Assembly (NCBI GenBank): GCA_019114445.1
Contig: DXFL01000023.1
Coordinates: 186,001 to 250,000, forward strand
Direction: 5' to 3'
Source of the DNA: Candidatus Barnesiella excrementigallinarum
GTDB taxonomy: Bacteria > Bacteroidota > Bacteroidia > Bacteroidales > Barnesiellaceae
DNA length: 64,000 nucleotides
Shown: piece by piece, positions 11,228-58,741 of the stretch
Layout of the letters: every line of letters begins with the position of its first letter
Position numbering within the stretch: position 1 is the stretch's first letter
Made by a program: the position numbers and the translations under genes
The notes under the pieces: generated by a model
The model's database searches: none
Told to the model about the DNA's origin: nothing
What the model saw: the letters and a program-made list of their open reading frames with translations, nothing else

Positions 11228-11283
11228 CAAAATAACATAAACAAAACCACACTTTCAATGTATATCTACACTGAAACGATGTA
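11228..11283 (-). promoter_or_regulatory. Locus operator/promoter copy D
   Basis: In the minus sense: TACAT, 16 bases, TACAT (period 21), then 22 bases to the -7 box TTATTTTG (11228-11235). The half-sites read ATGTA on the plus strand at 11258 and 11279. The -7 box lies 27 bases before the ATG of the CBM-like protein. The proximal half overlaps the -33 position, as expected for a class II activator site. Confidence 0.8.
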
Positions 11284-11304
11284 AAATTCTCTTATCGAAA
11301 CGAT

Positions 11305-13884
11305 TTATTTTGAGACAATAAGCGAATGGGTATATGCCACCCCATTAGGCTGAACTGCAACTAAAAAATAGTATCCGCTATCCAATCCCTGCAACCGGAC
11401 TATATGTACATTCGTTTCATCGGGATTACACGATTGCACTCTTTGCAGTTGCCCATTTGTAGAATAAATCTTCACCTCCGAAATGGGGACAACCGTATTG
11501 ACCTTTACATAATCTTTTGTTGGATTGGGTGCGATAGAAACGAGTTGCGACGAATCGCGTTTTACCGAACCGACAGACGACTCGATCTTCGCACGGGGCG
11601 CAAATGTATCGCTAAGCACAATCTCATCATAATAAAAATCGGTCGGCTCATAGTAGCGGGCTGCATTGTTGGTCCAGTTGCCGTCCAATATAATCTTAAT
11701 CGTGCGGAGCTCGTTTAATTGCGATTTTACATCGACAACAATATCGAACCACTGCTGGGCAGCAGGACAACCGCCTCGTCCCAACTCCACATAATTCACA
11801 CCGTCGGCGCTACCGTAAATCAACCACGAATTCAACTTTTGGCCTTTCCAATGCATCACGTGTAAAAAACGATTGTCGTCGTTAATTTCAACGGTCTCTT
11901 TCAACCAGATGACTATATTATTTGCGCTCCATGCCGGAATGCCTTTGTCCTTATCTTGACGAGTACGCACATACAAACATTTCGACGAAGCATTGATTTC
12001 GTCTCTATGCGGGTTATCCACCACAACCGGGGTTTGGAGTTGCTGATTAGAGTTCCCAAGCAACGTCGAATAAAATGGGACACTCCCGTCCTCGAAAGTT
12101 GCAATGGTAACGACATTGTGATCGGTAACATCGTCCAACGTACCATCATGGACAAGGAGATTCGTGCCATCATCGATTATCCATTTGTCTATACACAGAG
12201 CCCCGCCTATGGATTGTAACCAAAAGATGCCTTTCCCAACAGCAACCGAAGCCATATCAAAAACGACCTCTTTCCACGTGCCAGCCTCAACAACCACCGG
12301 CTGTTTATCGGCTCCATTGGTATATTCCAATGTGATATTCGCATTTCCGGGGTTCTTGCACAATACTCGTAACCGATTTGCGCTGTCCGATTGCTTTTCA
12401 TAAAAATAGCCCAATGTCCCGTTAGCCGGCAACTCTATATAAGTGCCCTCGCCATCGAACTGCAAACCGTGGGTCAATCCTTGCTGGCGTTCAAACAGAT
12501 TTGCTTTTACAACCTCATTCGAAGCATGAAATACAAAATGAGCCACGCCAAACGACTCTTTTTTCATATAAGGCATTTGAGCATTGGTTTCTGTTCGCCA
12601 ATTTTGTAAATCGGCATACAACTCGGCCGCCTTTTCAAGATTACTGTTGATTAAGTTTTCAGACTCATCGGGATCTTCCGCGAGATTATACAGTTCAAAA
12701 GCTCCATTATAAAAGAACAACGATTTCCCGAAATTTTCAATCAGTTTCCAATCGCCCTTACGAATCGAGCCTAAGAACTCTGCTTCGGGGTGGTAGTGAG
12801 GATAATGCCAACAGAGGTATTCGCGTTTCCCTGCCGCACTTTCATTCCCCATTAAAGCCTCCGCAAAGCTTACTCCATCGATACCACGGATAAACGACTC
12901 GTCGGTCAATCCGCACAAATCATACAATGTCGGTAAAAAATCATGGGCGATAACCTGCTCATCACAAGTCGAACCCGCCTCGATCCGGCCTTTCCATTTG
13001 ACAATAAGCGGCTCACGGACACCCCCTTCCCAAAGGGTCACTTTCCCGCCTCTTAACGGCGAAGGTCCCACTTTTTCATTGGGAGTAAACTGCCCATTGT
13101 CGGCATAAAACACAATAATCGTATTCTCCTCCAACCCCAAATCCTTTACAGCCTGCAACAATCGGCCGGTCTCTTTGTCTACGGTCTCGACCATAGCGCC
13201 TTGTACCGGATTCCACATACCTTTTTCAGTGGCGCCCGGTTTATCCCGGTATTTCTGTATCAATGCAGCCTCTTCGGTTTCGGGGGTATGGATAGAATTA
13301 TGAGAGAGATAGCAAAAAAACGGTTTACCCTGCTCTTTGCTTTCTGTCATAAATTCAATAGCCGTATCGGTATACTTCTTTACATTGTGCCAATCCGATT
13401 CTTGCGTAATATCCGGCCCATCGTTCCGCTCAATCAAATCCCAGCCGGGCAAATCCTTGCTTAAATGCCACTTCCCTATCATTGCCGTTACATAGCCGCC
13501 CGACTGCATCATTACCGGTAATCGCACATCATCTTTATTTAGTCCTTTTGTCCAATTGGGACAAACCAAATCGGAGTTCTCAGGCTCGGCATAACCGTTC
13601 AACCAATCGGTTGTATGCGTACGGGCCGGATACATACCCGACATTAATGCGGCTCTTGTTGGAGAACTGACGGATGCCGAGGCATAAGCATTCGTAAAAT
13701 TCATTCCCTCCGATGCCAGCCGGTCGATATTCGGAGTCTCAAAAAACGTACTGCCATTACACCCTAATTGATGATACCCAAAATCGTCAAGCATGATAAA
13801 CAAGACATTGGGCTGTTGCTGTGCCGAAAGCGATGCCGAAGACAACAATGCGGCACCATAAAATACTCTATTTCTAAATTTCAT
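11305..13884 (-). CDS. Ser-type sulfatase with C-terminal binding modules and T9SS domain
   Basis: An 859-aa secreted sulfatase of family S1. After the signal peptide (to about residue 21), PNVLFIMLDDFGYHQ provides the metal-binding Asp pair. The signature S-S-P-T-R-A-A-L-M-S-G places the formylglycine-precursor Ser at residue 73. HLSKDLPG and FYADNGQF are further family segments. The catalytic part ends near residue 440. Residues 445-595 look like a beta-sandwich module. Residues 595-770 match module 1 of the neighbouring protein (ATFEDGSV ... RFLHVMHWKG ... FYYDEIVLSD). Residues 785-859 are a T9SS type A domain starting SIAPNPTKDYV. Substrate position is unknown. It is probably the last gene of the operon from 19804, 108 bases after GH30. 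Confidence 0.9.
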   Translation of the reverse strand: MKFRNRVFYGAALLSSASLSAQQQPNVLFIMLDDFGYHQLGCNGSTFFETPNIDRLASEGMNFTNAYASASVSSPTRAALMSGMYPARTHTTDWLNGYAEPENSDLVCPNWTKGLNKDDVRLPVMMQSGGYVTAMIGKWHLSKDLPGWDLIERNDGPDITQESDWHNVKKYTDTAIEFMTESKEQGKPFFCYLSHNSIHTPETEEAALIQKYRDKPGATEKGMWNPVQGAMVETVDKETGRLLQAVKDLGLEENTIIVFYADNGQFTPNEKVGPSPLRGGKVTLWEGGVREPLIVKWKGRIEAGSTCDEQVIAHDFLPTLYDLCGLTDESFIRGIDGVSFAEALMGNESAAGKREYLCWHYPHYHPEAEFLGSIRKGDWKLIENFGKSLFFYNGAFELYNLAEDPDESENLINSNLEKAAELYADLQNWRTETNAQMPYMKKESFGVAHFVFHASNEVVKANLFERQQGLTHGLQFDGEGTYIELPANGTLGYFYEKQSDSANRLRVLCKNPGNANITLEYTNGADKQPVVVEAGTWKEVVFDMASVAVGKGIFWLQSIGGALCIDKWIIDDGTNLLVHDGTLDDVTDHNVVTIATFEDGSVPFYSTLLGNSNQQLQTPVVVDNPHRDEINASSKCLYVRTRQDKDKGIPAWSANNIVIWLKETVEINDDNRFLHVMHWKGQKLNSWLIYGSADGVNYVELGRGGCPAAQQWFDIVVDVKSQLNELRTIKIILDGNWTNNAARYYEPTDFYYDEIVLSDTFAPRAKIESSVGSVKRDSSQLVSIAPNPTKDYVKVNTVVPISEVKIYSTNGQLQRVQSCNPDETNVHIVRLQGLDSGYYFLVAVQPNGVAYTHSLIVSK

Positions 13885-13992
13885 AATATTCCAATTTTAA
13901 ATATCGAGTAACTATCATTCTATATAACAACACCCCTTTTGACCATCGGCAACGGGGCTAAGGGAAAATATCATATCGCAATATAACAGAGG

Positions 13993-15561
13993 CTACTTGT
14001 TCACCAAAGTCACCACCGAACGAGCAGGAATCGCAATAGCGTCGGCACGGGTCTCTCCCACATATTTTAGATCAGAGCGATTCGACGTTTCGTAACACTT
14101 AAATGTTTTCGATCCAAACCCTTTCGGCAAATGATCGATCGAAAGTTTTACCTGCTTTTCCGCGGTACCATAATTGACAAACACGATAACAACCTTCTTG
14201 CTACCTTTATCGATATACGCCGAAGCCATTAAATCACGGGCCGTATCCACATTATTCACGTTGGCCTCTCCTACTTGGGCGATTCTCTTCATTCCGGGAC
14301 GAACAAAGAAGCTGTAATTACCCAATGCCCACATATATTTGGTCGGCAAAAAATAACCGTCCTCTTTAAGATCTATCGCCTGCTCTACTTTCTTATGCGG
14401 ATTGAGCAAGGTTTCATCTCCGATATAAATCAAAACATCTTTATAGTTCCCTTCGGAGAAGGCCGTCCACGATTGCCACGACGAAGCCTCTGCCACAGTT
14501 AAATCGTGATGGATAATTCTCGCCACATAAAGGGCATAATCCATACCAAAATCGCGTTGCCCGCCACCATTCGGGTTATCGGGATTCTGCTCCATAGGGC
14601 AGAATTCGGTTTGCCAATAGGTATATCCCTCAGGCAAAGCAGCCCTTAATTCCGCTCTTGTCGAAATCAACGTGTCCAACGGCCATGTACTCCAATACGA
14701 ATGGCCGCTTACGGTTTTGGCCACATTCTTCAAATCCCCGATATAATGAGGGCCCGTGGGGAGAAACATCTCGGCTATCTGATTATCCCGCAACGCATTC
14801 ATACCCCCACGATACAAATAGCGAATATCGGCCGCTTCGCCAAAGACAACTTTGGTTTTTGAATTACGCACGGTGATTTCCTCGTCTATCAATTTGATTA
14901 ATTTTGCCGACTCTTCATTCGTAGCCTGCATCCCCTCCTGACGAGAAACATTCCATGCCCACTGCGGTTCATTAATCGGGCTGAGGTAATCGATTCCCAA
15001 ATGGTCGCAAACCTCGGCCATGAACGAAGCATAATTGCGATATTGGTCCTCACGAATATTTGCATAAGGAGTGGTATCGCTGGCACGGGCCATTCCGTTC
15101 TTAGTCATAAAGTAGGGCGCCGTAATCGAGAATCCCAACGAATAAGGAACTCCCCGTTTCTTGGCGGCCTCTAAAAACCATCGTTGCCCTTTTTGCTTGG
15201 TCCAATCCCAATTCCCGTCTTTATCGAGGAAACATTCGGTACGCCGCCAATCACTGGTGATACCGCTCGCATCGCCGGCCTCATGACTGCCCGATCCAAT
15301 ATTAAACCGCCATAAGCTCAATCCTATACCCTTAGGGCTTCCCGTATCATCGAACTCCGAGCTGAAAAGCAAATCGGCCATTGCATTTTTCTTCTCTTCG
15401 GGCCACAAGCCCACATATTGAGCGCGCCAACAATCGGATGCACCAAAACTGTGAATCTCTTGACGCTGGTCGTTATAATCAAATGTAATCTGTTCTCTAT
15501 TCTGAGCTGCAACCGTCATTCCCGCAAAAATTGCCAATGCTCCGATAATATGTGTTTTCAT
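13993..15561 (-). CDS. GH30-family glycoside hydrolase
   Basis: A 522-aa secreted retaining hydrolase with a signal peptide ending about residue 19. The (beta/alpha)8 barrel starts at SFGASDCW. The acid/base is E198 in SPINEPQW and the likely nucleophile is E319 in YWQTEFC. The C-terminal beta-domain (about 430-522) is the usual GH30 side structure. Family GH30 includes beta-1,6-galactanases, glucanases, xylanases and fucosidases; the GHSYW and INEPQW context recalls the galactan-type subgroup, but this is not firm. It is related to the GH30 core of the LamG protein at 39923-43075. It lies between the sugar porter and the T9SS sulfatase in one operon. Confidence 0.9.
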   Translation of the reverse strand: MKTHIIGALAIFAGMTVAAQNREQITFDYNDQRQEIHSFGASDCWRAQYVGLWPEEKKNAMADLLFSSEFDDTGSPKGIGLSLWRFNIGSGSHEAGDASGITSDWRRTECFLDKDGNWDWTKQKGQRWFLEAAKKRGVPYSLGFSITAPYFMTKNGMARASDTTPYANIREDQYRNYASFMAEVCDHLGIDYLSPINEPQWAWNVSRQEGMQATNEESAKLIKLIDEEITVRNSKTKVVFGEAADIRYLYRGGMNALRDNQIAEMFLPTGPHYIGDLKNVAKTVSGHSYWSTWPLDTLISTRAELRAALPEGYTYWQTEFCPMEQNPDNPNGGGQRDFGMDYALYVARIIHHDLTVAEASSWQSWTAFSEGNYKDVLIYIGDETLLNPHKKVEQAIDLKEDGYFLPTKYMWALGNYSFFVRPGMKRIAQVGEANVNNVDTARDLMASAYIDKGSKKVVIVFVNYGTAEKQVKLSIDHLPKGFGSKTFKCYETSNRSDLKYVGETRADAIAIPARSVVTLVNK

Positions 15562-15592
15562 ACATAAAGTTTTTATATTAAGATCCTATCTA

Positions 15593-16981
15593 CTAACCTA
15601 TTAATTCCTTTTCAAGGACTTCCAACGATTTTCCTTTTGTTTCGGGAATCCGCCGCCAAGCAAACAGGAATCCCAACAAACAAATGACGGCATATAAGAT
15701 AAACGTGCCACCTGTTCCCAATCCGCCATTGAGGAATGGGAAGGTATATGTCAACAAGAACGATGCAATCCACAACGCTGCCGTACAAATAGCCATAGCA
15801 ACGCCTCGTACTCTATTGGGGAATACCTCCGAAAGCAGCACCCAAGTAATGGGGCCAAGCGACATGGCATAGAATCCTATGGCCAAAACAACCAAAATAA
15901 TCATGACAAAACCCGTGAACTCCATAAAATAGCACAGCCCTAAAATGGTGTATATACCTGCCAGACCGGCCGCCCCTATCATCATCAAAGTCTTTCGTCC
16001 CAACTTATCTACCGTAAAGATGGCAACAAATGTAAATACCAAATTGGCAATACCTGTTATTACGATATTCATCAATACATCGGATATTCCATAACCGGCA
16101 GCTTGGAATATTTCCTGCGCGTAGTTAAAGATTACATTGGTACCGCTCCACTGCTGGAATACGGCAACAACAAGTCCGATAATCAATACATTACGCATTT
16201 TCTTAGAGAACAAGGCTTTCAAGGCGGCAGATCCTCCGTGAGATTCACCTACAACCTCTTTGTAATTTTCGATTTCGGCATCGGCATAAGATGTGCCACC
16301 CACCCTCGTCAATACGGCGTGAGCCTTTTTCAACCGTTGTTTTCCGGCCAGCCAACGGGGGCTCTCCGGGATAAACAAGGCCAACAAAAAGAACAATCCC
16401 GAGGGTACACAAACGGCCCAAAACATCCAGCGCCAACCGCTTTGCCCATTCCAAGAGGCACAAATGTCGGCCACAGAAGCATCGATGGCAACCGGTTCGG
16501 CAATCAACATATTTACGATTTGCGCGCCCAAAATACCCAAAACGATAGTCAATTGGTTCAGTGTCACCAACCGGCCTCGAATTTGTGTCGGAGCCACCTC
16601 GGCGATATACATCGGCGACAAATCGGCAGCCAAACCGATAGCTACCCCGCCGATTAACCGGGCTACGACAAACACCGTTATCTCGGTAGCCGCGCCTGTC
16701 CCCCAAGAAGAGAGGAAAAAGACCAATGCCGAAATAACCAAAAGATTCTTTCGCCCATAACGGTCGGCAAGAAATCCGGCCATCGTTGCACCCAACAGAC
16801 AGCCCAACAAAGCGATACTCATTGTCAGAGCCTGCATGGTGGCATCTCCAGCAATATCGAAATAAGCCTCATAAAAAGGTTTGGCACCTCCGATCACTAC
16901 CCAGTCGTAACCAAACAGCAATCCGCCCATGGCCGAAACCAAACAGATAAAATATACAAATCCTTTATTATAGGTATTCAT
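15593..16981 (-). CDS. MFS sugar:proton symporter (sugar porter family)
   Basis: A 462-aa inner-membrane monosaccharide importer with twelve predicted helices. The sugar porter signatures are present: GGLLFGYDWVVIGGA in helix 1, DRYGRKN between helices 2 and 3, PMYIAEVAPTQIRGRLV after helix 4, PESPRWLAGK in the central loop, GRKTLMM between helices 8 and 9, and PETKGKSLE at the C-terminus. XylE-like and galactose/fucose-accepting members cannot be separated by eye. Its place between GH2 and GH30 suggests it imports the monosaccharide freed in the periplasm by these enzymes. Gaps to its neighbours are 33 and 31 bases, consistent with one transcript. Confidence 0.93.
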   Translation of the reverse strand: MNTYNKGFVYFICLVSAMGGLLFGYDWVVIGGAKPFYEAYFDIAGDATMQALTMSIALLGCLLGATMAGFLADRYGRKNLLVISALVFFLSSWGTGAATEITVFVVARLIGGVAIGLAADLSPMYIAEVAPTQIRGRLVTLNQLTIVLGILGAQIVNMLIAEPVAIDASVADICASWNGQSGWRWMFWAVCVPSGLFFLLALFIPESPRWLAGKQRLKKAHAVLTRVGGTSYADAEIENYKEVVGESHGGSAALKALFSKKMRNVLIIGLVVAVFQQWSGTNVIFNYAQEIFQAAGYGISDVLMNIVITGIANLVFTFVAIFTVDKLGRKTLMMIGAAGLAGIYTILGLCYFMEFTGFVMIILVVLAIGFYAMSLGPITWVLLSEVFPNRVRGVAMAICTAALWIASFLLTYTFPFLNGGLGTGGTFILYAVICLLGFLFAWRRIPETKGKSLEVLEKELIG

Positions 16982-17014
16982 ACTAAAAAAGATTTATAGA
17001 TGATTAAACATTTC

Positions 17015-19804
17015 TTATTCATAAATTCCGGTCGCCGATTGTTTGGTTGCCTCGGCCGAACCGAATGCCGGAGCAAGGACATCGAGATTCAGGATTTCGG
17101 CCGGAGCAAAATCCGAACTATTCATATATTTCAAAATTGAAACAAGCATTTGCTTCGCAACCGATCGCTGCGCCAAATCCGACTGCAAATCGAATGTAGC
17201 AAGCACCAATCTGCCTTGCCCTACTTTCCCTTCATAGAGAGAAGCCAACCGACGGTTATTGGCAAAATTGTCTATCATCTCAACGATGGGTGCTCCGCCT
17301 TTCAACTCATCGACAACCAAAGTGGTCGAATTTATATTCAAATCCCACCATTGCCAATCGGTATGAATATCTGTCGGGAAATCTGCCAAAGCCTTATGGG
17401 AAGGATCACAAAGGATTCCCATCGTTCCGGCCTGTTTGGGGAAGTGAACCGGGCTCCAAAATACAGGAACGAACTTACCCTCGATTCCTTTCATCTTTTT
17501 CCATTCGGGATTGAACAGAACCGTTTTCCCCTGCGATAACAGAAGTTTAGCCTCGTCAAAACTCCGGGTATAAACTACATTTCCAAAATCGACCGCTTGC
17601 TGTGCCGGATATACCCAAATATTCCATCTGTTTTTGTAATCCGTATCATTCAATGTCACAACCACTTGTAATTTCGCAGCCTTATCAACGCCATCTAAGG
17701 CAAAATCTATTTGACCTAACCCGCCATTATAGCCTATTATTGCCTTTTTCATGGGAATCGTTCCTGCCGCCAACTTCTGATTGCCATTATAAATCTCCCA
17801 CGAGAATGTTTTGTCGACCAATTCCGAGGCGCCATAATTGCACAACTCCAATTCGGCTGCAAAATGCTCATCATTCTTATAAACGGCTTTGGGGAATTTA
17901 AGCAAAGGAACTACGGGCGAGCAAAACTCTCGGAACTCGGCACCGCTTAAAATGCCCTTACTCTCCCAAAACGCATTCAACAACCCGACAAGAGCCGTCC
18001 CCTGTCCCGGGAAATCATGCAAATCGAGCAACTGGAATCCACTGATACCGGCGGTCTTCAACGCCCGTTCTATCTCTTCCTTGTATAAAATAGCTGCCAA
18101 CTTCCCAGACGACAACGTATAAGACGACGCCTTATCCAACAATCCTTTTTTCTCCAAATCGTTTCGTATGGCAATAAAGTTCGTCGGTTTAAGAACACCC
18201 GTATATTTCTCTATCTCCTTCATATCGGGATAAACCGAATACTGCCCTATCTCGTGGGTAATCAAAGGAACGGTCATACCCTCGATTGCCGTACCGTAGT
18301 CCTTGTCAAACGACGGAGGATATTGATTGAACACGCCTTGTCCGCGCACCCACCCTTTGTCGGTCCATTGCGACACGAAGAAATCGTCGTCAGGTTCGGG
18401 CCATACGCCATGTCCCTTTGCAAACGTAAACGACGTGGTGGTATATAAATGTCGTGGGTCTTCTTTTTTTAACCGCAGCAAAAGGTCTGTCAACATATCG
18501 AAATCGCCTTCCAATTCATTGCCGAGGCTCCACAGGCAAAACGAAGGATGGTTGCCATACTCTTTCAGGATTCGCCAAGCCTCATCTTGAACAAATTTCA
18601 CGGCACCCGTGTCGGTACCCAAAGTCGTCGACCATACCGGCAATTCCACTTGAAGATAAAATCCCATTTCATCGGCCACCTCAAATGCGGCACGGGGAGG
18701 ACACCACGAATGAAATCTCAAATGGTTCAACCCATAATCCTTAGCGGCTTTAAATACAGTCTCCCAACCTGCTTTATCCATCGGAGGCGTCCCCGTCAAC
18801 GGGAAAATGCAACACTCCAACGTTCCTCTCAAAAATAACGGACGATTATTCAACATCATTTGAGCACCTCTATGCTCCAATTTCCGCATACCAAATGTCG
18901 AGGCTTTCGAAGTCGAGATCTCTCCTGCATTAATCTCGACATCCATCGTATAGAGCGTAGGGGTATGCTCGCTCCAAAATTCGGCGTCGTCCATCGGGCA
19001 GACATATTCCACCGTATCTTTACCCACGGCAATATCCCGTTCTTCTTTTTTCTTCGAAACGATTTTTCCCGTGGCTTTATCCTTCACGGTCATAGCTATT
19101 GTCGAATGTACAGGATTATCGGTTTCATTTTCCAACGACAATACAACTTTCACCGACCGATCGTCTACATCGGGATACAACCGCATATTTTCGATAGAGA
19201 CATTCTCTACACATTGCAAACTCATATCCCCCAAAATTCCATTCCACTTGATTTGGGTATGGTCGGTATACGCATGAGCCAAGTTATCGGCCACCGAAAT
19301 TTCATGGCGATACCGGTTATCTACCCTAACGGTAAGGATTTGCGATTCGCCGGGAACGACAAAATCGGTCAAGTCATATCGATGAGGAGTAGTAAGGCTC
19401 TCTTCATTACCGGGCACCTTTTTCCCGTCGACCCAAACCTGCGAATCCCACAAGACCCGTTCCAAATTCAAAACAACCTGTTTCCCTTCCCACTGTTTGG
19501 GAACAGTAATTTTTCGGGAATACCAAGCCGGACCTACGTAACTATACTTCCGGGTAAGATGGAGTAGTTGGGGCTTTGTCAACTCCGGTTTCAAAGTATC
19601 TGGATTGCCCAATTTCGCCTCATCGGTAGTCCCCGGCAACAAGATTGAGGTCGAATACATTTGTCCGGCCCAATTTTGTTCCACCCCCACATCGGCACTA
19701 TCAAGTTTTACGGTCCACTCCCCGGATAAATCGACTCGCTCCGGCGTAACCGAACATGAGCACAAAAAAGCAAACAGAATGATTGATCCCAAGTAATGCT
19801 TCAT
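17015..19804 (-). CDS. GH2-family lipoprotein glycosidase
   Basis: A 929-aa lipoprotein; the lipobox is L-C-S-C, modified Cys17. Domains in order: sugar-binding jelly roll (about 25-200), immunoglobulin-like domain (205-305), TIM barrel (310-600) and C-terminal accessory region. The acid/base is E430 in SLGNELEG and the nucleophile E518 in ITHEIGQY. The barrel starts with a distinctive RPLFLRGTLECCIFP, shared with the GH2 at 30618-33434, with which it is paralogous along most of its length. Beta-galactosidase, beta-glucuronidase or a related exo-activity is possible. It is the first gene of an operon running through porter, GH30 and sulfatase, behind operator copy C. Confidence 0.9.
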   Translation of the reverse strand: MKHYLGSIILFAFLCSCSVTPERVDLSGEWTVKLDSADVGVEQNWAGQMYSTSILLPGTTDEAKLGNPDTLKPELTKPQLLHLTRKYSYVGPAWYSRKITVPKQWEGKQVVLNLERVLWDSQVWVDGKKVPGNEESLTTPHRYDLTDFVVPGESQILTVRVDNRYRHEISVADNLAHAYTDHTQIKWNGILGDMSLQCVENVSIENMRLYPDVDDRSVKVVLSLENETDNPVHSTIAMTVKDKATGKIVSKKKEERDIAVGKDTVEYVCPMDDAEFWSEHTPTLYTMDVEINAGEISTSKASTFGMRKLEHRGAQMMLNNRPLFLRGTLECCIFPLTGTPPMDKAGWETVFKAAKDYGLNHLRFHSWCPPRAAFEVADEMGFYLQVELPVWSTTLGTDTGAVKFVQDEAWRILKEYGNHPSFCLWSLGNELEGDFDMLTDLLLRLKKEDPRHLYTTTSFTFAKGHGVWPEPDDDFFVSQWTDKGWVRGQGVFNQYPPSFDKDYGTAIEGMTVPLITHEIGQYSVYPDMKEIEKYTGVLKPTNFIAIRNDLEKKGLLDKASSYTLSSGKLAAILYKEEIERALKTAGISGFQLLDLHDFPGQGTALVGLLNAFWESKGILSGAEFREFCSPVVPLLKFPKAVYKNDEHFAAELELCNYGASELVDKTFSWEIYNGNQKLAAGTIPMKKAIIGYNGGLGQIDFALDGVDKAAKLQVVVTLNDTDYKNRWNIWVYPAQQAVDFGNVVYTRSFDEAKLLLSQGKTVLFNPEWKKMKGIEGKFVPVFWSPVHFPKQAGTMGILCDPSHKALADFPTDIHTDWQWWDLNINSTTLVVDELKGGAPIVEMIDNFANNRRLASLYEGKVGQGRLVLATFDLQSDLAQRSVAKQMLVSILKYMNSSDFAPAEILNLDVLAPAFGSAEATKQSATGIYE

Positions 19805-19856
19805 GGTATATAATGCTTTAAAGTTTTATTGAATGATTAGAATTAATTTCTAATTG

Positions 19857-19912
19857 CAAAATAAGATTATTTCTCGAAATCCAAAAATGTAAAATAGCAC
19901 GATAATGATGTA
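19857..19912 (-). promoter_or_regulatory. Locus operator/promoter copy C
   Basis: Minus sense: TACAT-N16-TACAT followed by 22 bases and the -7 box TTATTTTG (19857-19864). Plus-strand ATGTA half-sites start at 19887 and 19908. The box is 52 bases from the GH2 ATG. The site also lies 20 bases upstream of the regulator gene's own promoter, so the bound protein could affect both directions. Confidence 0.82.
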
Positions 19913-19931
19913 GAATTAATGGGTTAAAAAA

Positions 19932-19963
19932 TTTGCCGAAACGACAAGGTTTTATTACTTTTG
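19932..19963 (+). promoter_or_regulatory. Promoter of the AraC-family regulator gene
   Basis: TTTG (19932-19935), a 20-base spacer and TACTTTTG (19956-19963) match the Bacteroidota consensus fully. Unlike the six locus promoters it has both boxes intact and no properly placed TACAT repeat, consistent with steady activator-independent expression of the regulator. The leader would be only about 13 bases. Confidence 0.7.
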
Positions 19964-19982
19964 TAAAAAGCAGTAAATCAAC

Positions 19983-20864
19983 ATGGAAAAGAAACAAGAA
20001 GGCTTCATCAACCAAAAAGCGATTGTTATACCTCTTGATATAAAAAACATTTTGGCGAGAGACGAATTAACCAAATTGCTTTACATTACCGACATCGGAT
20101 ATTATCCTCATGCCGAAGGCCATTATCGTATACGGAAATACGGCTCACACCAAAACATTTTGATTTATTGTACCGAGGGAGAAGGTTGGTATCATATCAA
20201 TAATCAGCGTTTCAAAGTAAAGAAAAATCAATTCGTTATTATTTCGGCGGGCACGCCCCATATCTATGCAGCTTCGGAAGACCATCCATGGAGTATCTAT
20301 TGGATACACTTTACCGGAGAGAAAGCCAATGTTTTTGAAAACTTCTACAACAAAACCCACTCTATCGACGAGGCATCGGATGCCCGGTTCGAAGCCCGCA
20401 TACAACTTTTTGAAGAGATTTTCCAAAACTTAGAAATGGGTTACAACATCGAGAACCTGCATTATACCACCTTAGTCCTATGGCATTTCCTCGGATCGTT
20501 CCGTTATATTCCGCAATTCCGAATCATCAACAAAAGTTCGGCGGTGAATATTATCAACGATGCCATTATCTTTATGAAAAAGAATCTCGACAAAAAGTTG
20601 ACACTCGAAGAAATTGCCCATCATGTCAACTATTCACCCTCACACTTTGGATTGGTATTCTCGCAAAAAACCAGTTTTACTCCGCTCAACTACTTCAACC
20701 AGTTGAAAATACAGGCCGCCTGTCGCTATCTCGATTTTTCGGACCTTAAAATGAAGGAAATCGCGCAAAAATTAGGGTTCTACGATCAATACCACTTTTC
20801 CAAAGTATTTACCAAACACATGAACATGACCCCTTCGAAGTACAAAGCAAAGAACAAAGGATAA
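19983..20864 (+). CDS. AraC-family transcriptional regulator of the locus
   Basis: A 293-aa cytoplasmic one-component regulator. The N-terminal cupin-like sensor covers about residues 35-130. It contains YRIRKYGSHQNILIYCTEGEG and SIYWIHFTG, typical of AraC_binding domains that sense small sugars. A helical linker follows. The C-terminal double HTH (about 190-290) contains LTLEEIAHHVNYSPSHFGLVF and the AraC signature around EIAQKLGFYDQYHFSKVFTK. It is the only transcription factor in the window and is divergent from an operon preceded by operator copy C. Direct repeats spaced by two helical turns are what two tandem AraC-type DNA-binding domains usually recognise, so I infer it activates all six locus promoters. 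The stop codon directly abuts the stop of convergent GH95. Confidence 0.93.
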   Translation: MEKKQEGFINQKAIVIPLDIKNILARDELTKLLYITDIGYYPHAEGHYRIRKYGSHQNILIYCTEGEGWYHINNQRFKVKKNQFVIISAGTPHIYAASEDHPWSIYWIHFTGEKANVFENFYNKTHSIDEASDARFEARIQLFEEIFQNLEMGYNIENLHYTTLVLWHFLGSFRYIPQFRIINKSSAVNIINDAIIFMKKNLDKKLTLEEIAHHVNYSPSHFGLVFSQKTSFTPLNYFNQLKIQAACRYLDFSDLKMKEIAQKLGFYDQYHFSKVFTKHMNMTPSKYKAKNKG

Positions 20865-24319: not shown

Positions 24320-24332
24320 ATCGTCTATTTTT

Positions 24333-28063: not shown

Positions 28064-28073
28064 AATCCAGCTA

Positions 28074-29150: not shown

Positions 29151-29156
29151 CTCTTA

Positions 29157-30563: not shown

Positions 30564-30617
30564 TTTATTACTTTTATTTTTAATACGTTAATTACAAATC
30601 CGGTTGGGATAAACCAC

Positions 30618-33434: not shown

Positions 33435-33498
33435 TTATATAGAAAAGGGAATTGCTATCACTCCCTCTTCTACCCAATCTAAGTGTTCTCTATATAAA
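33434..33498 (-). repeat. Inverted repeat abutting the GH2 start codon
   Basis: TTTATATAGA (33434-33443) and TCTATATAAA (33489-33498) are perfect 10-bp inverted copies, with a weaker inner GGGA/TCCC stem. In the mRNA the 3' arm runs into the ATG at 33434, so the helix would cover the translation initiation region. The remaining intergenic bases (33499-33585) show no promoter I can support. Confidence 0.5.
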
Positions 33499-36405: not shown

Positions 36406-36449
36406 AGCTATAATTTTATTTATCAACCATTAGGTTTCCATGACAGCAC

Positions 36450-39400
36450 TCACTGGCACATTGCCAAATGAGCCGCCCCACCCTGATGGTTAATATCGAG
36501 TTTCACTACTTCGCCGAGGAATTGAGCGGCTTTTTCCTTGTTGCCCAAGCCCAAATTGCCCAAGCCCATGACCAAGTTACAATGTATCTTATTGCGGACT
36601 TCCAAATCGTCTTCCCAAATCAAAAGATCGGGGAGAGAGACTGCAAAATAATCGATCTTTACATGGTCGAACAAATGGGCTTCTCCATGCTTAATCAACT
36701 TGTTGAAACGGCTCCGGGCTTTCTTCTCATTGCCCAATTTACGCCAAGCCAAACCTTGATAAAATATTTTATCGGGTTGCTGGTCGTTATAGAAGAATGC
36801 GATTGCCGGTTCGGCCGACCCCACAGTAGCCTTTTCGAAATAGGCTTTTGCTTTATCGGCATTGCCCAATCCTTCGTAAGCACACCCCAAATAATAATGA
36901 ATATCATTCTCTTCGGCCATAGCCAATTTACCTTCTCCAAGATTTTCGGGATAGTTCACCGTTTCAAGCAACAGATCCACGGCATCTTGATAGCGTCCCT
37001 CTTTAAGGGCGATCTTGGCCAATTCGATACGGCAGATGAGGAACTGGTTCGTTACCTTTCCTTCACCACCTTCCCACGGGTGGAATTTACGTGAAGCGAT
37101 CAAATCTTTCGCCTCACTATATCGGCCAAGTTGGTTCAGCAAAGTAATGCGCTCGATACACAAGTCGTCGCGTTGTTCTACCAAATGGGCATACTTGTTC
37201 AAGAAGTCCAACCGGGTAGCATGGGAATAACGCAATTTCTTGTACAACTGGTCAAGTTCCATTAAGATACGAGAATCGGTATCATCGAGAGCAAAGGCTT
37301 TTTCCATAGCTTCCAATGCCTTTTGTTTATCATTTTGCTTGTTGTAGTAAGCCAAAGCCAAGTTACGCCAAACGGTAGGGAACTTATCGTTCAGTTTCAC
37401 CGATTTTTCCCAACATTCCACCGCCTCTTTATATTGACGGGCACCATACCAGAAATTACCCAAATAATACGGAGCTTTCGAATCGGCCGGATTTACACGC
37501 ATGGCATCTTGCAGAATCAACACTTCTTCGATCTTGTTCGGGAAACAATAATCGGGACATTTGGCGGCAGCTTCCCGATAGTATGCTTGTGCGGCTTCGA
37601 TATTACCATTTTTCGAAGCAAAGTAGCCCAACGCATAAGAAGCCATCGGATAGGTTACCTCTCCCTCTTCAAACAACATCAGCATAAACCGCTCGGCCAA
37701 TTCATACAAACCGGCATTTGCATAGTCGAGGGCAAATTCGATATAACTATTTACGGCACCTCGAAGCAAGTTTTTCAATTCGGCTTTGACAAGAGCCGCC
37801 TCGTTAATTGCCCCTTCGGCTTCGAGGAGCAACATCTTCTCGAATCGGCAGCCCATATTGAATTTGTCAATTTCGAGCGAATCGTCGATCAACGCCAAAG
37901 CTTGGTCGTACTTCCCGGTCATGCGTAAAATAGTTGCTTTGAGTTGACGCGCTTTGTGATTGTGCCAATTACGAATCAACGAACGGTCGATCAGCTCCAA
38001 AGCCCTCTCCCAATTGCCACGACGGACATCGATTTGAGCCAAGGCAAAATAGGCAGGGTCTTGCCATGCAGCATTCCATGTCGATTTGAAGAATGCATCA
38101 TAAGCACCGTCGAAGTCGCCTTGCATTTGTTTACACCAGCCCAAATTGAAATAAGGCTCACCATCGTAAGGATTCGGATTGCGCTCGGTTTGTGTCTCAA
38201 TGGCTCTCTCGAAATAGGGTTGCGCTTGCGCAAATTGTCCACGGCGCATTAAAAGCAACCCCACAGCATTGTTGCAGCGTATATCGCCCGGCTCACGGCT
38301 AAGAGCCTCCATATAATAATCCAATGCCGAATATGTGGCATGACGATATTGCTCGATGTGGTGTCCTGTCAGGAACAACTGCTCGATACTCGCAATATCT
38401 TTCGGGTCTTTGGCAGCCTTTGCCGGTTCGGGAATCGGCCGAATTTCGGGTTTTTCCGGCTGGAAGCGGACCATTTCGTTCCCTTTTTCATCGAATACGC
38501 ACATACAAAGGGTTTCGTCGAACCGGTTGTCGCAAGCGACGACATCGACAAAAGGTTCGGCCGGCGATACCGGCGTCTCCACATCGAGGTAGACTTTCTT
38601 GTTGTCGCACAACGTCACCCTCACTTTACTATGGTTGGCCGTTGTATAAACTACCACCTTCACTTTACCCTCACCTGCCGGTTCCACATTGATTAAAACA
38701 TCGCAGGTCGCATTCTTGACCATACCCACTTTCTGATACGGCATGAAATACTGTACCCAAGTTTTTTCCTCATAGGGTTGCAACCAAGTAAAATCGGGTT
38801 GATTATCGCAATACATACCCGTCATCAACTCGATATACGGGCCATCTTCGTCCGTGAGATTGCGATCCCATGCTTTACCAAAATCGCCGCATCCCCAAGT
38901 CCATTGTTTTTTACCGGCATTGACATGATGGTCGGCCACGTGCAACAATCCGGCCTCGCACCCATCTTCATATCCGCCTACAAAATCATATTTCGAGTTA
39001 ATGGCCATATAGGAAGTGGGCACCGGAATATTTTTATATCGCGAAATATCCACCCCTTCCGAATAGTCTACTTTATAATACTCGCCCGTAGCAATAGGGA
39101 AACTCGAAACTGCCCGTTTCCCGTGATCGAATACCGCATTTACATCGGGCGGGAAGACCGAAAAGTAGGAGTCATTGACAACCACCGCCGGATTTGCCCA
39201 CCACAAAAAGGTTTGCGGGAACGGAGTACGGTTATAGACTTTCGCCTTAATTTCGATATACGATTTCCCCGGATAAAGCGTGAAGCCGGCCATTCCCTTT
39301 GTACGGAACATTCGCTCCACTTCGCTGCACCAAATTGTCTTGCTGCCATCTTCAAACTCCTCGATATAACAATCGGTAGGCATAAATGTAGTAGGACGAT

Positions 39401-39809
39401 GGTGTTGCGGCCAATTGAACTCAATACCCCCCGAAATCCACGGGCCTACCAAACCCACCAATGCAGGCTTTACCACTTGATTGTAATACACAAAATGGCG
39501 TTTTTTCACCTTATCGTATGCCATGTGTATACGTCCGCCCAATTCCGGAAGAATCATTACTTTGATAAACTCATTCTCGATGAAAAATGCTTTATAAGCC
39601 TTATCTTTCTTTTCATCGCTAATCTTCTCGATAACCGGATATGGATAAACGGAACCGGAACTCCCCTGATAAACACGTTTTTCGAGGAAGATAGGATTTT
39701 TTTCTTCCTTCCCGGCTTCATAAGTCGGCAACATCACCACCTCTTCCCATGCTTTCACCTCAGACGTGTTGACCGTGCTTCTAATCAAATATTCTGTGAT
39801 CAATTCCAT
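36450..39809 (-). CDS. DUF5107 and tetratricopeptide-repeat protein
   Basis: A 1119-aa protein with no signal peptide or membrane segment, so it should be cytoplasmic. Residues 25-330 are a DUF5107 beta-sandwich of the galactose-mutarotase-like superfamily (KVMILPELGGRIHMAYDK, WISGGIEFNWPQHHRPTTF, TFLWWANPAVVVNDSYF). Residues 460-1119 are about fourteen TPR-like helical pairs (AVGLLLMRRGQFAQAQPYFERAIE, YFNLGWCKQMQGDFDGAYDAF and so on). Proteins of this make-up occur beside polysaccharide loci. The fold allows sugar binding or catalysis, but the role is not established. It has its own operator/promoter copy E. Confidence 0.85.
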   Translation of the reverse strand: MELITEYLIRSTVNTSEVKAWEEVVMLPTYEAGKEEKNPIFLEKRVYQGSSGSVYPYPVIEKISDEKKDKAYKAFFIENEFIKVMILPELGGRIHMAYDKVKKRHFVYYNQVVKPALVGLVGPWISGGIEFNWPQHHRPTTFMPTDCYIEEFEDGSKTIWCSEVERMFRTKGMAGFTLYPGKSYIEIKAKVYNRTPFPQTFLWWANPAVVVNDSYFSVFPPDVNAVFDHGKRAVSSFPIATGEYYKVDYSEGVDISRYKNIPVPTSYMAINSKYDFVGGYEDGCEAGLLHVADHHVNAGKKQWTWGCGDFGKAWDRNLTDEDGPYIELMTGMYCDNQPDFTWLQPYEEKTWVQYFMPYQKVGMVKNATCDVLINVEPAGEGKVKVVVYTTANHSKVRVTLCDNKKVYLDVETPVSPAEPFVDVVACDNRFDETLCMCVFDEKGNEMVRFQPEKPEIRPIPEPAKAAKDPKDIASIEQLFLTGHHIEQYRHATYSALDYYMEALSREPGDIRCNNAVGLLLMRRGQFAQAQPYFERAIETQTERNPNPYDGEPYFNLGWCKQMQGDFDGAYDAFFKSTWNAAWQDPAYFALAQIDVRRGNWERALELIDRSLIRNWHNHKARQLKATILRMTGKYDQALALIDDSLEIDKFNMGCRFEKMLLLEAEGAINEAALVKAELKNLLRGAVNSYIEFALDYANAGLYELAERFMLMLFEEGEVTYPMASYALGYFASKNGNIEAAQAYYREAAAKCPDYCFPNKIEEVLILQDAMRVNPADSKAPYYLGNFWYGARQYKEAVECWEKSVKLNDKFPTVWRNLALAYYNKQNDKQKALEAMEKAFALDDTDSRILMELDQLYKKLRYSHATRLDFLNKYAHLVEQRDDLCIERITLLNQLGRYSEAKDLIASRKFHPWEGGEGKVTNQFLICRIELAKIALKEGRYQDAVDLLLETVNYPENLGEGKLAMAEENDIHYYLGCAYEGLGNADKAKAYFEKATVGSAEPAIAFFYNDQQPDKIFYQGLAWRKLGNEKKARSRFNKLIKHGEAHLFDHVKIDYFAVSLPDLLIWEDDLEVRNKIHCNLVMGLGNLGLGNKEKAAQFLGEVVKLDINHQGGAAHLAMCQ

Positions 39810-39841
39810 TATATGAAAATATTTTTTTAATTTCTACAATG

Positions 39842-39897
39842 CAAATATCATACATTAACCTCTTTTGTAAAATGTATGATATTTGCAAAATAATGTA
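39842..39897 (-). promoter_or_regulatory. Locus operator/promoter copy E
   Basis: Minus sense: TACAT-N16-TACAT, 22 bases, then the -7 box GATATTTG (39842-39849). Plus-strand ATGTA half-sites start at 39872 and 39893. The -7 region and the proximal half-site are also reverse complements of each other: TGCAAATATCATACATT (39840-39856) mirrors 39871-39887 over 17 perfect bases. The box is 32 bases from the DUF5107/TPR start. Confidence 0.8.
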
Positions 39898-39922
39898 TTA
39901 AATCATTATTCCGTCAATCGGC

Positions 39923-43075: not shown

Positions 43076-43086
43076 ACTATTTAGTT

Positions 43087-44175: not shown

Positions 44176-44188
44176 TTCTACTTAATCT

Positions 44189-45925: not shown

Positions 45926-45928
45926 TGT

Positions 45929-48900: not shown

Positions 48901-49075
48901 AATTACCATCTATATCGGTTATGGTCGAGTGTTTCCCTCCATTGACCAATACCGCCGCTCCGGTCAACGGTTCTTTGGTATCGTTATCGATAACGACACC
49001 TTTTATTGTATGAGCCGACAACGAAAACGACATCACACAAAAAAGTCCTATTATAAAAAATTTTATTCGTAACAT
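45929..49075 (-). CDS. susC: SusC/RagA-family TonB-dependent outer-membrane transporter
   Basis: A 1048-aa outer-membrane importer that takes up oligosaccharides together with SusD. From ATG 49075 there is a clean signal peptide (MLRIKFFIIGLFCVMSFSLSAHT). The open frame extends to 49132, but that extension crosses a hairpin and lacks a signal start. A carboxypeptidase-like (DUF4480-type) domain (IKGVVIDNDTKEPLTGAAV) is followed by the TonB-box region DLDEVVVIGYG and the plug (LQGRAPGVEVVQNSGAPGS, DPLYVVDGMPMDNIDF, SAAIYGSRAANGVVLITTK). A 22-strand barrel ends in F-D-F. No N-terminal signalling (STN) extension is present, so it does not drive an anti-sigma cascade. It is the second gene of the operon headed by the ELWxxDGT protein. 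Confidence 0.97.
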   Translation of the reverse strand: MLRIKFFIIGLFCVMSFSLSAHTIKGVVIDNDTKEPLTGAAVLVNGGKHSTITDIDGNFRISTELESAQLVVSYVGYSSKTIGWNKDMQELTVALVNSIQDLDEVVVIGYGVQKKSDLTGSISSIDADDVSAMPVTNVVQALQGRAPGVEVVQNSGAPGSSTSIRIRGMGTINNSDPLYVVDGMPMDNIDFISPDDIASIEILKDASSAAIYGSRAANGVVLITTKDGSKSKKRFNINFSSYVGFQEAAKKPSILSKEEFVFFEDYVDNQYSKTMKDESGALVLNPEFSGLVENGEDWWDEIYNPAAPMFKTTLSIYGGTDKLNYYLSGNWTNTEGIVKESGYDRKSFNSKLNVKLLDNLSLGTNLSYTHVDTRVVPEGSWSTIKSAINFNPLTPVFDTSGGYTWGTPVEQLRRASYDKFNDNVIGQLNLNWQIIKELNFTSRASYAYYATDIDQFNRYNANPEAVGTIKYDVARNPTTTKNFSWDNILTYIDSFGKHNLNIMVGQTMETQAYENNSFSGTGYGGYDDWYDSLSFANFSKNGTGYSTGWTALGILGRLSYDYAGRYLFQANFRADASSRFAKSNRWGIFPSASLGWKINEEAFMKDVDWISLLKLRAGWGQLGNNRISNFEYMNLVGLTGSNNYIYGVGTPSITPGMSIVQYGNPDILWERTESWSAGIDFNLWNNKITSSFEYFVKDTRDMLIQVPIVYSAGYPNTPMQNAGSVRNKGFEIQVSYRDNYGDFRYEIGGNISHVKNNILSLGAVGEPILGGNLGNPTPLGYVNRTVLNAPIACFYGWKTDGVLQASDFDEEGNVLVPVFASTRKYNPGDMKFVDINGDNVIDDNDRTFIGSPHPDFYYGLNIELGYKGFDLSMMFQGVAGNELYNVMKYFQYSSVNQNGAFTGTSITNVAADYYDKVYRPVGDPNNPTYRDNWGPNLTGTVPAPSSDQARNEVNFRNSDFYIEDGSYFRLKNIQLSYTFSKDFCKRSSIQGLKLYVSASNLFTITKYTGLDPEVGKRIGTESNNLFIGIDEGNYPQSRSYMFGVVFDF

Positions 49076-49088
49076 ACCTTTTGATATA

Positions 49089-49133
49089 ATTAATGCCCGC
49101 ATTAATCCCTTAAAGAGAATAGATACGGGCATT
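49089..49133 (-). repeat. Nested inverted repeats just upstream of susC
   Basis: AATGCCCG (49126-49133 on the minus strand) pairs with CGGGCATT (49092-49099). The latter also lies inside a near-continuous palindrome ATTAATGC-CC-GCATTAAT (49089-49106). The helix ends 13 bases before the susC ATG, in the 74-base gap after the ELWxxDGT gene. It could modulate susC translation or mRNA processing. Confidence 0.5.
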
Positions 49134-49149
49134 ATATATTATAATTCAA

Positions 49150-50958
49150 CTATTCGACAATAACTTTCTTACAAATGTTTGTACCATCTTCCAAAGAGAC
49201 TACCATTAGATAAAGTCCCGACGGATATGTTACCACGGAAATCTGAGTTGTTGCTCCGGATTCCATCACTTGCGCACCTTGTACATTAAATAATTTCACG
49301 CTTGTTACAGCTTGTTCCGATTCGATATTGATTACATCGTTCGATACGGTCGGATAAATTTTCACATTCGATGCGGTTACCGACGTTACACTTCCGGGAT
49401 CGCCGCCGGCTACAATATAGCGATACAGCGCTTTGGTTCCCATCGAGGCGAAATAGAGGTTTTCATTGATATTCATCAAAGAGTGCATATTTCCATTTTC
49501 GGGGAGGTCGACAACCTTTGCCGGGGCAGCATCGGGAGAATCCATACACCACAACTCCATATTACTGTCGGCATCTTGTGCTACAAAAAACATTTTTGTT
49601 CCTACATTTTCAAACCAACTGCTATTATCCCGCTGGTTGCCTTTGAAGATTTCAGTTCCACACCAATGCATCGAATATTGTAAATTGGACAAAGTAGCCA
49701 AATCCAACCGCCACAAACTATATCCCGAAGCATACTCCGTTTCGTCACCTTCCAAGAAATAACCGCCATTGGCCTGCATAAACAAGAAGTCGCCATACAT
49801 ATGGAAGTTGCTGGGCCACGAAGACAAATAAGCATTACCGCCCCAATGGTTAACATCTACCAACGAACGAGGATTTACACCTTCTTCGATAGGTTGCGAC
49901 AAGTCAAAAATACAAGGTTCTACATTGTGTACGCCATCGTCGGCTCGGAAATAAAGTACATCGCCGTACGATCTACCGCAAGCAAACTGTGTACCGGTTG
50001 GGAGACCATTGGTTTCGCCCTTAGCGAAATCGAAACCGATCCATTTTGTTCCTTCGGCAGTTCCATCGGATACCCAAATTTCGCTACCCATATCTGTGGT
50101 TCCGGTAACCTCGGCTACGGTTTCTGCACGGAATACGACCCACTTGTTATTCACCGGTGTAAGCCAGTCAATAGCAGCCGATGCGGTTTGGAACGATTCG
50201 CCGGGAGTAGCCTTAGGATTGATATTCTTCACGGCTTTCGTTCCTTCAGGAGTACCATCTGATACATATAATGTTTCATTCATCTCCAAATTGTACCCTA
50301 CATAGAATGCCAAGCCATTAGCCTCTACAATCACACCGGCATCGCCGTCGTAATTGTTCTGGCGGGTCGGATTTTTACCCAAACGGATTGTCCCCTCTTC
50401 GGTTCCATCGGAAATCCACAACCATTTTTCGGGGTCGATACCTATTGTAGGAACAAACTCGCTCTCTTCGTCCATGGCAAAGAACATGACTTTATCCTGA
50501 TATTTAGACAAGCCAAACGGGCTACTACCCATTTCGCCCGGATAAATATCTTTTACCATTTTCGTACCGGCCTCGGTTCCGTCAGATACCCACAACTCGG
50601 CTCCGGCTTCCGAAGTTTCGGCTACGAAATAAACTTTATTCCCCACAACAGTCAAATAGGAAGGATTAGAACCAACGGCTCCTATATTAATATCCTTTAC
50701 CATTTTTGTCGTTTCGGGGGTCAGACCCGATACCCACAACTCATCACCCTCTTCGGCAGTCTTAGCCGTAAAGAATATCAAATTATTATCGGTCTTTACA
50801 ATAGGTTTTTTATTTTGGGTGATGTTATCAATCCCTTCTGAAGTAAGTTCTACACCTTCGGGGGTCAATGCGATCATGCCTTCCGGCAACACAACGTCAG
50901 CAGCAGATCCTGCAAAAACTGAACACAATGCAACTGCAATAGTAAAATACTTATTCAT
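49150..50958 (-). CDS. ELWxxDGT-repeat beta-propeller protein with T9SS sorting domain
   Basis: A 602-aa secreted protein. The ATG at 50958 gives the signal peptide MNKYFTIAVALCSVFAGSA; the open frame up to 51060 crosses the promoter and is rejected. The body is made of repeats of the ELWxxDGT family, for example ELWVSGLTPETTKMVKDINIG, ELWVSDGTEAGTKMVKDIY and EIWVSDGTAEGTKWI, each a propeller blade of about 45-60 residues (residues 50-510). The C-terminal 75 residues are a T9SS type A domain (KIYPTVSNDVINIES ... CKKVIVE). No catalytic signature is evident. As first gene of the susCD operon behind operator copy A, it is a strong candidate for a new surface glycan-capture or scaffold component. 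Confidence 0.85.
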   Translation of the reverse strand: MNKYFTIAVALCSVFAGSAADVVLPEGMIALTPEGVELTSEGIDNITQNKKPIVKTDNNLIFFTAKTAEEGDELWVSGLTPETTKMVKDINIGAVGSNPSYLTVVGNKVYFVAETSEAGAELWVSDGTEAGTKMVKDIYPGEMGSSPFGLSKYQDKVMFFAMDEESEFVPTIGIDPEKWLWISDGTEEGTIRLGKNPTRQNNYDGDAGVIVEANGLAFYVGYNLEMNETLYVSDGTPEGTKAVKNINPKATPGESFQTASAAIDWLTPVNNKWVVFRAETVAEVTGTTDMGSEIWVSDGTAEGTKWIGFDFAKGETNGLPTGTQFACGRSYGDVLYFRADDGVHNVEPCIFDLSQPIEEGVNPRSLVDVNHWGGNAYLSSWPSNFHMYGDFLFMQANGGYFLEGDETEYASGYSLWRLDLATLSNLQYSMHWCGTEIFKGNQRDNSSWFENVGTKMFFVAQDADSNMELWCMDSPDAAPAKVVDLPENGNMHSLMNINENLYFASMGTKALYRYIVAGGDPGSVTSVTASNVKIYPTVSNDVINIESEQAVTSVKLFNVQGAQVMESGATTQISVVTYPSGLYLMVVSLEDGTNICKKVIVE

Positions 50959-51001
50959 GATATAGATTTTTAGATTAGTATTTGTTGTTATTAATCTGTT
51001 A

Positions 51002-51057
51002 CAAATATATGACGCATCATACTCATACAAAATGTACGAAATATGGGTTTTGATGTA
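51002..51057 (-). promoter_or_regulatory. Locus operator/promoter copy A (susCD operon)
   Basis: The best-conserved copy. The plus strand shows two 13-mers, ATGTACGAAATAT (51032) and ATGTACAAAATAT (51053), differing at one base with a 21-bp period. In the minus sense this is TACAT-N16-TACAT, 22 bases, then a perfect -7 box TATATTTG (51002-51009). The -33 box TTTG overlaps the edge of the proximal half-site. The box lies 43 bases from the ATG at 50958. Confidence 0.88.
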
Positions 51058-51192
51058 CAAAATATTGGATTATGCCATTTATGAGTTCTGTAACAGGAAT
51101 AAACACGAAACAAGCGCAATCCTTTTCTACAAAACATCAACTTCCTCATACATAAACCGGGGGCTTCCTACATCTAAATTTTATTCCCCAGA

Positions 51193-53127: not shown

Positions 53128-53133
53128 CTTATT

Positions 53134-55743: not shown

Positions 55744-55745
55744 AC

Positions 55746-57818: not shown

Positions 57819-57830
57819 GATATATCTTTT

Positions 57831-58556: not shown

Positions 58557-58576
58557 GATATATAGATTTATAAGGA

Positions 58577-58632
58577 CAAAGTTATAGTAATTCGGCAAAT
58601 ATTAAAATGTACGATACTCCGATTATAATGTA
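58577..58632 (-). promoter_or_regulatory. Locus operator/promoter copy B
   Basis: Minus sense: TACAT-N16-TACAT, 22 bases, then a perfect -7 box TAACTTTG (58577-58584). Plus-strand ATGTA half-sites start at 58607 and 58628 (period 21). It drives the esterase/sulfatase operon starting at 58556; the box is 20 bases from the ATG. It is back-to-back with copy F, 53 bases away. Confidence 0.83.
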
Positions 58633-58685
58633 TATAATCATTATCTTAATTTCGCCGCAAAAGAATAATCCCCACAATAAAATTA

Positions 58686-58741
58686 TACATGATTATACAG
58701 ATATGCTACATTTTCCAAATGCCATAAATCGATTATCTTTG
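58686..58741 (+). promoter_or_regulatory. Locus operator/promoter copy F (plus strand)
   Basis: On the plus strand, TACAT at 58686 and 58707 (period 21), 22 bases, then a perfect -7 box TATCTTTG (58734-58741). The orientation is reversed compared with the other five copies and so is the gene it serves, the GH2 beta-galactosidase at 58764. This is the key control showing that the motif follows gene direction. Confidence 0.85.

Follow-up and report, generated by a model that had tools for sequence, protein, structure and literature searches.

Which regulator controls a glycan locus that is read from several promoters, and can its binding site be recognized from the DNA itself? We address this question in a window of 64,000 nucleotides from Candidatus Barnesiella excrementigallinarum (contig DXFL01000023.1, positions 186,001 to 250,000), in which the genes between 9.9 and 61.9 kb read as a glycan utilization locus. 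Six promoters of this locus carry the same site at the same fixed distance, and in other members of the phylum such sites stand beside many relatives of the AraC-type regulator encoded at 19983; for these two reasons the locus very probably represents a genuine regulon, one whose general type is already known. We consider it highly likely that the six elements serve as the operator-promoters of a single regulon under a soluble, sugar-sensing AraC activator, the putative role of the 19983 protein, acting from a class II position.

Each element consists of two TACAT half-sites separated by 16 bp and followed after 22 bp by a -7 box, and the coordinates, spacings and -7 boxes given for the six in the initial annotation of this DNA agree letter for letter with the sequence. 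Elements 1 to 5 lie on the minus strand and element 6 on the plus strand. Element 1 (11228..11283), of the form TACAT-N16-TACAT-N22-TTATTTTG, serves a gene at 9896-11200 whose 434-aa product has no Pfam match. Element 2 (19857..19912, -7 box TTATTTTG) is placed in the gap common to the regulator gene and the glycoside hydrolase (GH) gene at 17015-19804, a GH2 gene, which it serves together with an MFS porter, a GH30 and a sulfatase gene. Element 3 (39842..39897, -7 box GATATTTG) serves the DUF5107-TPR gene and the genes after it, and element 4 (51002..51057, -7 box TATATTTG) serves genes for a secreted ELWxxDGT-repeat protein, SusC, SusD and a GH30 enzyme. Elements 5 (58577..58632, -7 box TAACTTTG) and 6 (58686..58741, -7 box TATCTTTG) stand back to back within one gap, the former serving GDSL esterases and two sulfatases, the latter a LacZ-type GH2.

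The fixed spacing had been put forward as being beyond chance, and it is: TACAT-N16-TACAT-N26-TTTG occurs six times in the window and not once in 100 dinucleotide-preserving shuffles. The proximal half extends to TATnnTACATTTT in four of the six copies, as had been noted. The description of the -7 box as TAnnTTTG holds in part, since TTTG is present in all six and the strict form in only three, with TTATTTTG (twice) and GATATTTG as the exceptions. An alignment of the six copies, extended by 60 nt on each side, is invariant at columns 0-4, 21-26 and 52-55, plus scattered positions at -42, -35 and 65; common to all are both TACAT words, the T after the second TACAT and the TTTG, and the remainder is mostly variable. 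This confinement of invariant columns to islands points to constraint rather than to copied promoters. A seventh TACAT-N16-TACAT in the window, at 40013 on the plus strand, lies within an open frame and has no TTTG at that distance. One open reading frame, 49150-51060, listed from a TTG, overlaps the element with a half-site at 51032; the first ATG of this frame comes 102 nt later, past the -7 box. Within 60 nt, no additional half-site accompanies elements 2 and 4, elements 5 and 6 have only each other's, element 1 has one downstream and element 3 has one that is inverted. Element 3 also has a perfect 17-nt inverted repeat (39840-39887, with 14 nt between the arms), which links its spacer and proximal half with its -7 box.

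The pattern is specific within the host genome, an assembly of 2,611,671 bases. TACAT-N16-TACAT occurs 14 times, TTTG follows at 22+4 bases only in the six elements, and the remaining eight pairs all fall within open frames of 172 to 794 codons, taken from stop to stop and not as annotated genes. The exact pattern thus gives no equally good match elsewhere, as expected of the regulon that the initial annotation had proposed, and chance as the origin of the six elements is ruled out by the shuffles together with the open-frame location of the other pairs. If TTTG is allowed one base nearer (the 21-bp form), one extra site appears in the genome, on contig C19 and within an open frame; if TNCAT half-sites are allowed, one extra place turns up within the GH95 gene and another on contig C30. 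A genome control with the pattern read backward is void, because TACAT-N16-TACAT reversed is the identical pattern. A sigma-70 scan of 9800-20900 returned 28 matches against 22.9 expected, and such a scan is uninformative for this phylum.

The proposed binder of the six elements is an AraC-type one-component regulator of 293 aa, encoded on the plus strand at 19983..20864. Both its type and its standing as the sole transcription regulator seen had been noted, and both held when 36 open reading frames of the window were scanned. It has the features of the AraC/XylS family, a C-terminal AraC-type helix-turn-helix (HTH) domain and an N-terminal AraC-like ligand domain. The former (residues 211-289) scores 72.9 bits with HTH_AraC and 68.2 bits with HTH_18, and the latter (AraC_binding/cupin, residues 43-116) scores 49.9 bits with AraC_binding and 31.1 bits with Cupin_2, all above the Pfam cut-offs; one DUF1961 match is below its cut-off. 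The nearest solved structures by sequence are DNA-binding domains of AraC and of the hybrid two-component system (HTCS) type and, for the ligand domain, BgaR, whose chain 6nwh aligns to profile positions 55-139. Proteins of the AraC type bind half-sites arranged as direct repeats. Twelve AraC-type HTH matches were found in the genome; a frame of 1354 aa that carries one of them lies on the contig of the window, some 55 kb ahead of it. A candidate -7 box for the regulator's own divergent promoter, TACTTTTG, stands at 19956..19963 on the plus strand, shortly before its ATG.

The site follows the regulator in relatives, and the conservation that the initial annotation had anticipated was found both beside orthologs of the 19983 gene and in homologous loci. 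Within the genus, two of nine genomes have an ortholog (E <= 1e-40) and exactly those two have the element. Across the order, an ortholog passes E <= 1e-45 in 44 of 393 genomes; 48 of the 50 ortholog places were used, G305:C494 and G014:C113 being left out as they begin at a contig end. We searched up to 700 bp upstream of these genes with the half-site T[AC][CT]A[TC] and with both gaps free, over 552 gap pairs. The pair (16,22) was found in 21 of the 48 and every other pair in at most two; after removal of the eight promoters that had been read before the pattern was set, the counts were 15 of 40 for (16,22) and one for the next best. With the pattern unchanged, a second set of 80 named loci, the best 80 of 593 from another collection that shares species with the first, gave 21 for (16,22), 15 for (16,21) and at most three for each of the other 550 pairs. 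When this set was restricted to the 73 loci that stay below 95% identity with the first set and among themselves, the counts were 21 and 14, and after an 80% identity filter (62 loci) they were 21 and 13, with all others again at most three. A relaxed rule, devised with both ortholog sets in view, finds the element at 95 of 128 orthologs, compared with 3 of 128 on the opposite strand and zero to six in ten shuffles. In 850,817 bp around the orthologs there are 17 sites at the geometry of the element versus four in total at eight other spacers. Members of the regulator subfamily occur in records under the names Bacteroides, Parabacteroides, Flavobacterium, Sphingobacterium and others.

The genes behind the operator are conserved as well. 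Among 55 loci taken, three of which have no open frame behind the element, 45 of the 52 genes are 52-64% identical to the MFS porter of the window. Within 6 kb of the regulator (less at contig ends), such a porter is present in 62 of the 80 named loci and a DUF5107 relative in 57. Eighteen named loci have no divergent element: three of these have it before a porter that stands elsewhere (L140, L165 with one mismatch, L177) and one before a GH2 gene (L166), which indicates that the element can go with its target, and the other 14 showed nothing convincing. In G007, a genome of the same genus, the element lies between the regulator and the DUF5107 gene, with the porter next. Orthologs of the DUF5107-TPR gene carry an element in three other genomes, namely G007, Phocaeicola plebeius and, with one mismatch, the uncultured Bacteroides G400. 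The homologous locus of P. plebeius DSM 17135 has three elements, two of them with one mismatch, which precede a GH2 gene (TACAT/TCCAT), the DUF5107 gene (exact) and a regulator-divergent GH2 gene (TACAT/CACAT, 21 bp). In G400 there are four, of which one is exact and the other three each have a single mismatch; they precede two SusC-like genes, the DUF5107 gene and a divergent GH2. A strict search of 12 relatives gave at most two exact TACAT-type matches per genome. The six elements of the window are the highest count among the loci read, although weak copies may have been overlooked in other places.

Two clade-specific operator types occur among the orthologs, TACAT/TACAT and TCCAT/TCTAT, with the first gap identical. 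A co-variation analysis omitted four elements whose distal half is of another kind. In it, the types are best told apart by alignment columns 274, 279, 275, 267, 64 and 271, five of the six in the second HTH (267-279), a pattern that suggests reading of the TACAT word by the second HTH. On a tree built without the second-HTH region, operator type changes three times, which leaves two to three independent pairs. We did not accept this co-variation as proof: the raw association is strong but the independent events are few. In G029, a second TCCAT-N16-TCTAT element (L047, 7183) lies about 23 kb from the regulator of that genome; TCCAT-type regulons may therefore exceed one target. A TCCAT-N16-TCCAT-N22-TACTTTTG site was seen in Bacteroides fragilis S82 (L213, 16236, contig C11), about 46 kb from a TACAT-type regulator, and contigs C11 and C67 of G238 have three promoter-like TCCAT-type matches, with no ortholog reported there at E <= 1e-45.

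The minus-strand body of the proposed regulon extends from 11305 to 58598, the regulator at 19983 excepted. It encodes four sulfatases, two GH30 and two GH2 enzymes, GH95, GH106 and GH29 enzymes, a weak GH43 match and acetyl- and GDSL-type esterases; the locus also includes T9SS sorting-tail proteins. The MFS sugar porter (15593..16981) is the second gene behind element 2, the DUF5107-TPR protein of 1119 aa (36450..39809) stands behind element 3, and SusD (44189-45925) and SusC (45929-49132) form the pair behind element 4, all on the minus strand, while the LacZ-type GH2 behind element 6 (58764-61916) is on the plus strand. These enzyme families point to a sulfated, galactose-rich glycan as the likely substrate. 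For the DUF5107-TPR protein, the literature searched gave one paper that contains the term, listed as dealing with uncultured marine stramenopiles. A DUF4435 plus AAA_21 protein (3638-5212) lies outside the locus.

Several observations weigh against the activator regulon that we propose. Four more intergenic gaps of over 100 bp (108 to 174 bp, in units 2 and 3) hold neither an element nor a hidden weak one, so that control of the whole locus requires read-through, about 19 kb of it in unit 3. The distance to the -7 box is not absolutely fixed, being 22 bp in 68 and 21 bp in 27 of the 95 elements, and the near ortholog L116 (62% identical) has TACAT-N17-TCCAT-N22 instead. After removal of nine orthologs at >=95% identity from the 128, 33 of the 119 non-redundant ones have no element under the relaxed rule, some of them at contig ends and others not. 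The same rule applied to reversed sequence finds 17 of 128; that TACAT is unchanged by reversal is probably part of the reason. A loose pattern, TMCAT/TMYAT, matches in 34 of the 44 genomes with an ortholog and, by subtraction, in 191 of the 349 without; we rejected it as a discriminator of regulator presence over the 393 genomes, as it is too permissive. The link between operator and second HTH is too thinly based, given three changes on the tree, and the incompleteness of the genome (93.6% complete, 30 contigs) also has to be counted here.

Could the elements have arisen or act in another way? The similarity of six elements within 47 kb would follow if the promoters were recent copies of one sequence, with a spacing due to shared descent only. 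We regard this as scarcely credible: the sequences are unlike outside the islands, the six regions share no extended identity, and relatives retain the spacing while half-sites and spacers vary; the dissimilar flanks of the six copies rule out promoter duplication. A TACAT pair at a fixed distance upstream of the -7 boxes could also belong to promoters that an alternative sigma factor recognizes, with no regulator bound. This is very improbable, as the -7 boxes conform to the customary TTTG type (PMC7366714) and two half-sites 21 bp apart that vary by regulator clade are unlike a -33 element.

A more serious question is whether another AraC-type regulator of the genome, such as an HTCS, binds the elements, with 19983 merely among its targets. 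HTCS likewise use direct repeats about 21 bp apart, as described in part of PMC3878776, and the genome offers candidates in its 12 AraC-type HTH matches, the one in the long frame on the same contig included. The presence of the element, however, tracks 19983 orthologs both within the genus and locus by locus, and the operator type tracks the clade of the 19983 protein, so we judge this improbable. Somewhat less improbable, though still unlikely, is that 19983 binds the elements and represses, or both represses and activates by looping. In the absence of arabinose, E. coli AraC represses by looping; the back-to-back arrangement of elements 5 and 6 and the inverted repeat of element 3, whose inverted half-site could have a role in repression, would fit such a mode. 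Against it stand the near-constant distance from proximal half to -7 box, which is what contact with polymerase needs, and the scarcity of further half-sites within 60 nt of the elements.

We therefore return to activation by 19983. We infer that the protein, through its AraC-type domain, binds the two direct half-sites 21 bp, or two helical turns, apart, probably as a dimer on one face, with a cupin-like domain that would bind sugar. The proximal half would adjoin the -33 region of a sigma-ABfr promoter, with 22 bp between it and the -7 box, and activation would occur by contact with RNA polymerase; the near-constant distance between proximal half and -7 box is consistent with the class II placement suggested in the initial annotation. 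A likely signal is a mono- or disaccharide imported by the co-regulated MFS sugar porter, which would create a positive feed-forward loop. The usual unit in relatives is a regulator with a divergent porter and a DUF5107 protein under one operator, and this one-target module may have been extended to a 52-kb sulfated-glycan locus by further promoters with the same operator.

How does this regulon relate to known systems? Parts of the relevant literature describe Bacteroides promoters with TAnnTTTG at -7 and an element near -33 (PMC7366714), predicted direct repeats averaging 21 bp apart for AraC-type HTCS of Bacteroides (Ravcheev 2013, PMC3878776) and a 21-bp period for the AraC-type RhaR (Rodionova 2013, PMC3870299). 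The initial annotation had called this a probable new AraC regulon; that description stands, whereas an operator of this kind, with 21-bp direct repeats, is already in print (passages of PMC3878776 and PMC3870299). With the HTCS described in the available text of PMC3878776, 19983 shares an AraC-type DNA-binding domain, predicted operators with direct repeats about 21 bp apart and an association with polysaccharide utilization loci. Unlike those membrane sensors with kinase and receiver domains, it is a protein of 293 aa with only cupin-like and AraC HTH domains, and Pfam does not place sensor, kinase and receiver in its single chain.

RhaR of Bacteroides is likewise AraC-type with a direct repeat of 21-bp period, and its regulon, in the available text of PMC3870299 and PMC3878776, is a single operon, in contrast to the six promoters here. 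The AraC-type proteins beside rhaA in four genomes have a different N-terminus from 19983, and the four promoter stretches that were read contain no TACAT pair of the element kind; on these grounds we reject 19983 as a RhaR ortholog. The locus genes scanned include no rha catabolic genes. In one rhaB promoter (L226, about 5985-6052) we saw a weak 8/10 match at 21 bp, with others like it in the same stretch, which agrees with the RhaR period. CgrA (ZGAL_3159) of Zobellia galactanivorans, important for growth on carrageenan, is similarly an AraC-family protein encoded in a sulfated-polysaccharide locus, the carrageenan locus; unlike for 19983, the available text of PMC5698469 describes no operator for it.

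E. coli AraC and class II activators of the AraC family are two-domain proteins with a ligand domain of the AraC kind and with direct half-sites that adjoin the promoter. All of these are shared here; the promoter type, that of Bacteroidota, and the six promoters of a glycan locus are not. The E. coli AraC equivalog NF007860 (NCBIfam) scores 88.9 bits against a cut-off of 208, and 19983 is not AraC itself. We found no description of this regulon or operator in the open-access literature, a search that supplements and RegPrecise lay outside. As far as literature searches show, the novelty lies in the operator of the subfamily and the near-constant distance that separates it from the -7 box, in the module of regulator, porter and DUF5107 protein, and in the spread of this module over six promoters of one locus.

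More tentatively, and with slightly less than even confidence, we suggest that a phylum-wide module of AraC sensor, MFS porter and DUF5107-TPR protein was recruited as master switch of whole glycan loci by operator spread, that these loci respond to an imported sugar within the cell rather than to an oligosaccharide sensed in the periplasm, and that its operator code may be readable from sequence, the second HTH reading the half-site and the spacing being fixed. The gain would be an operator that can be read from sequence for a whole regulator subfamily, a way of controlling glycan loci that differs from membrane sensing, and, in the DUF5107-TPR protein, a testable partner.

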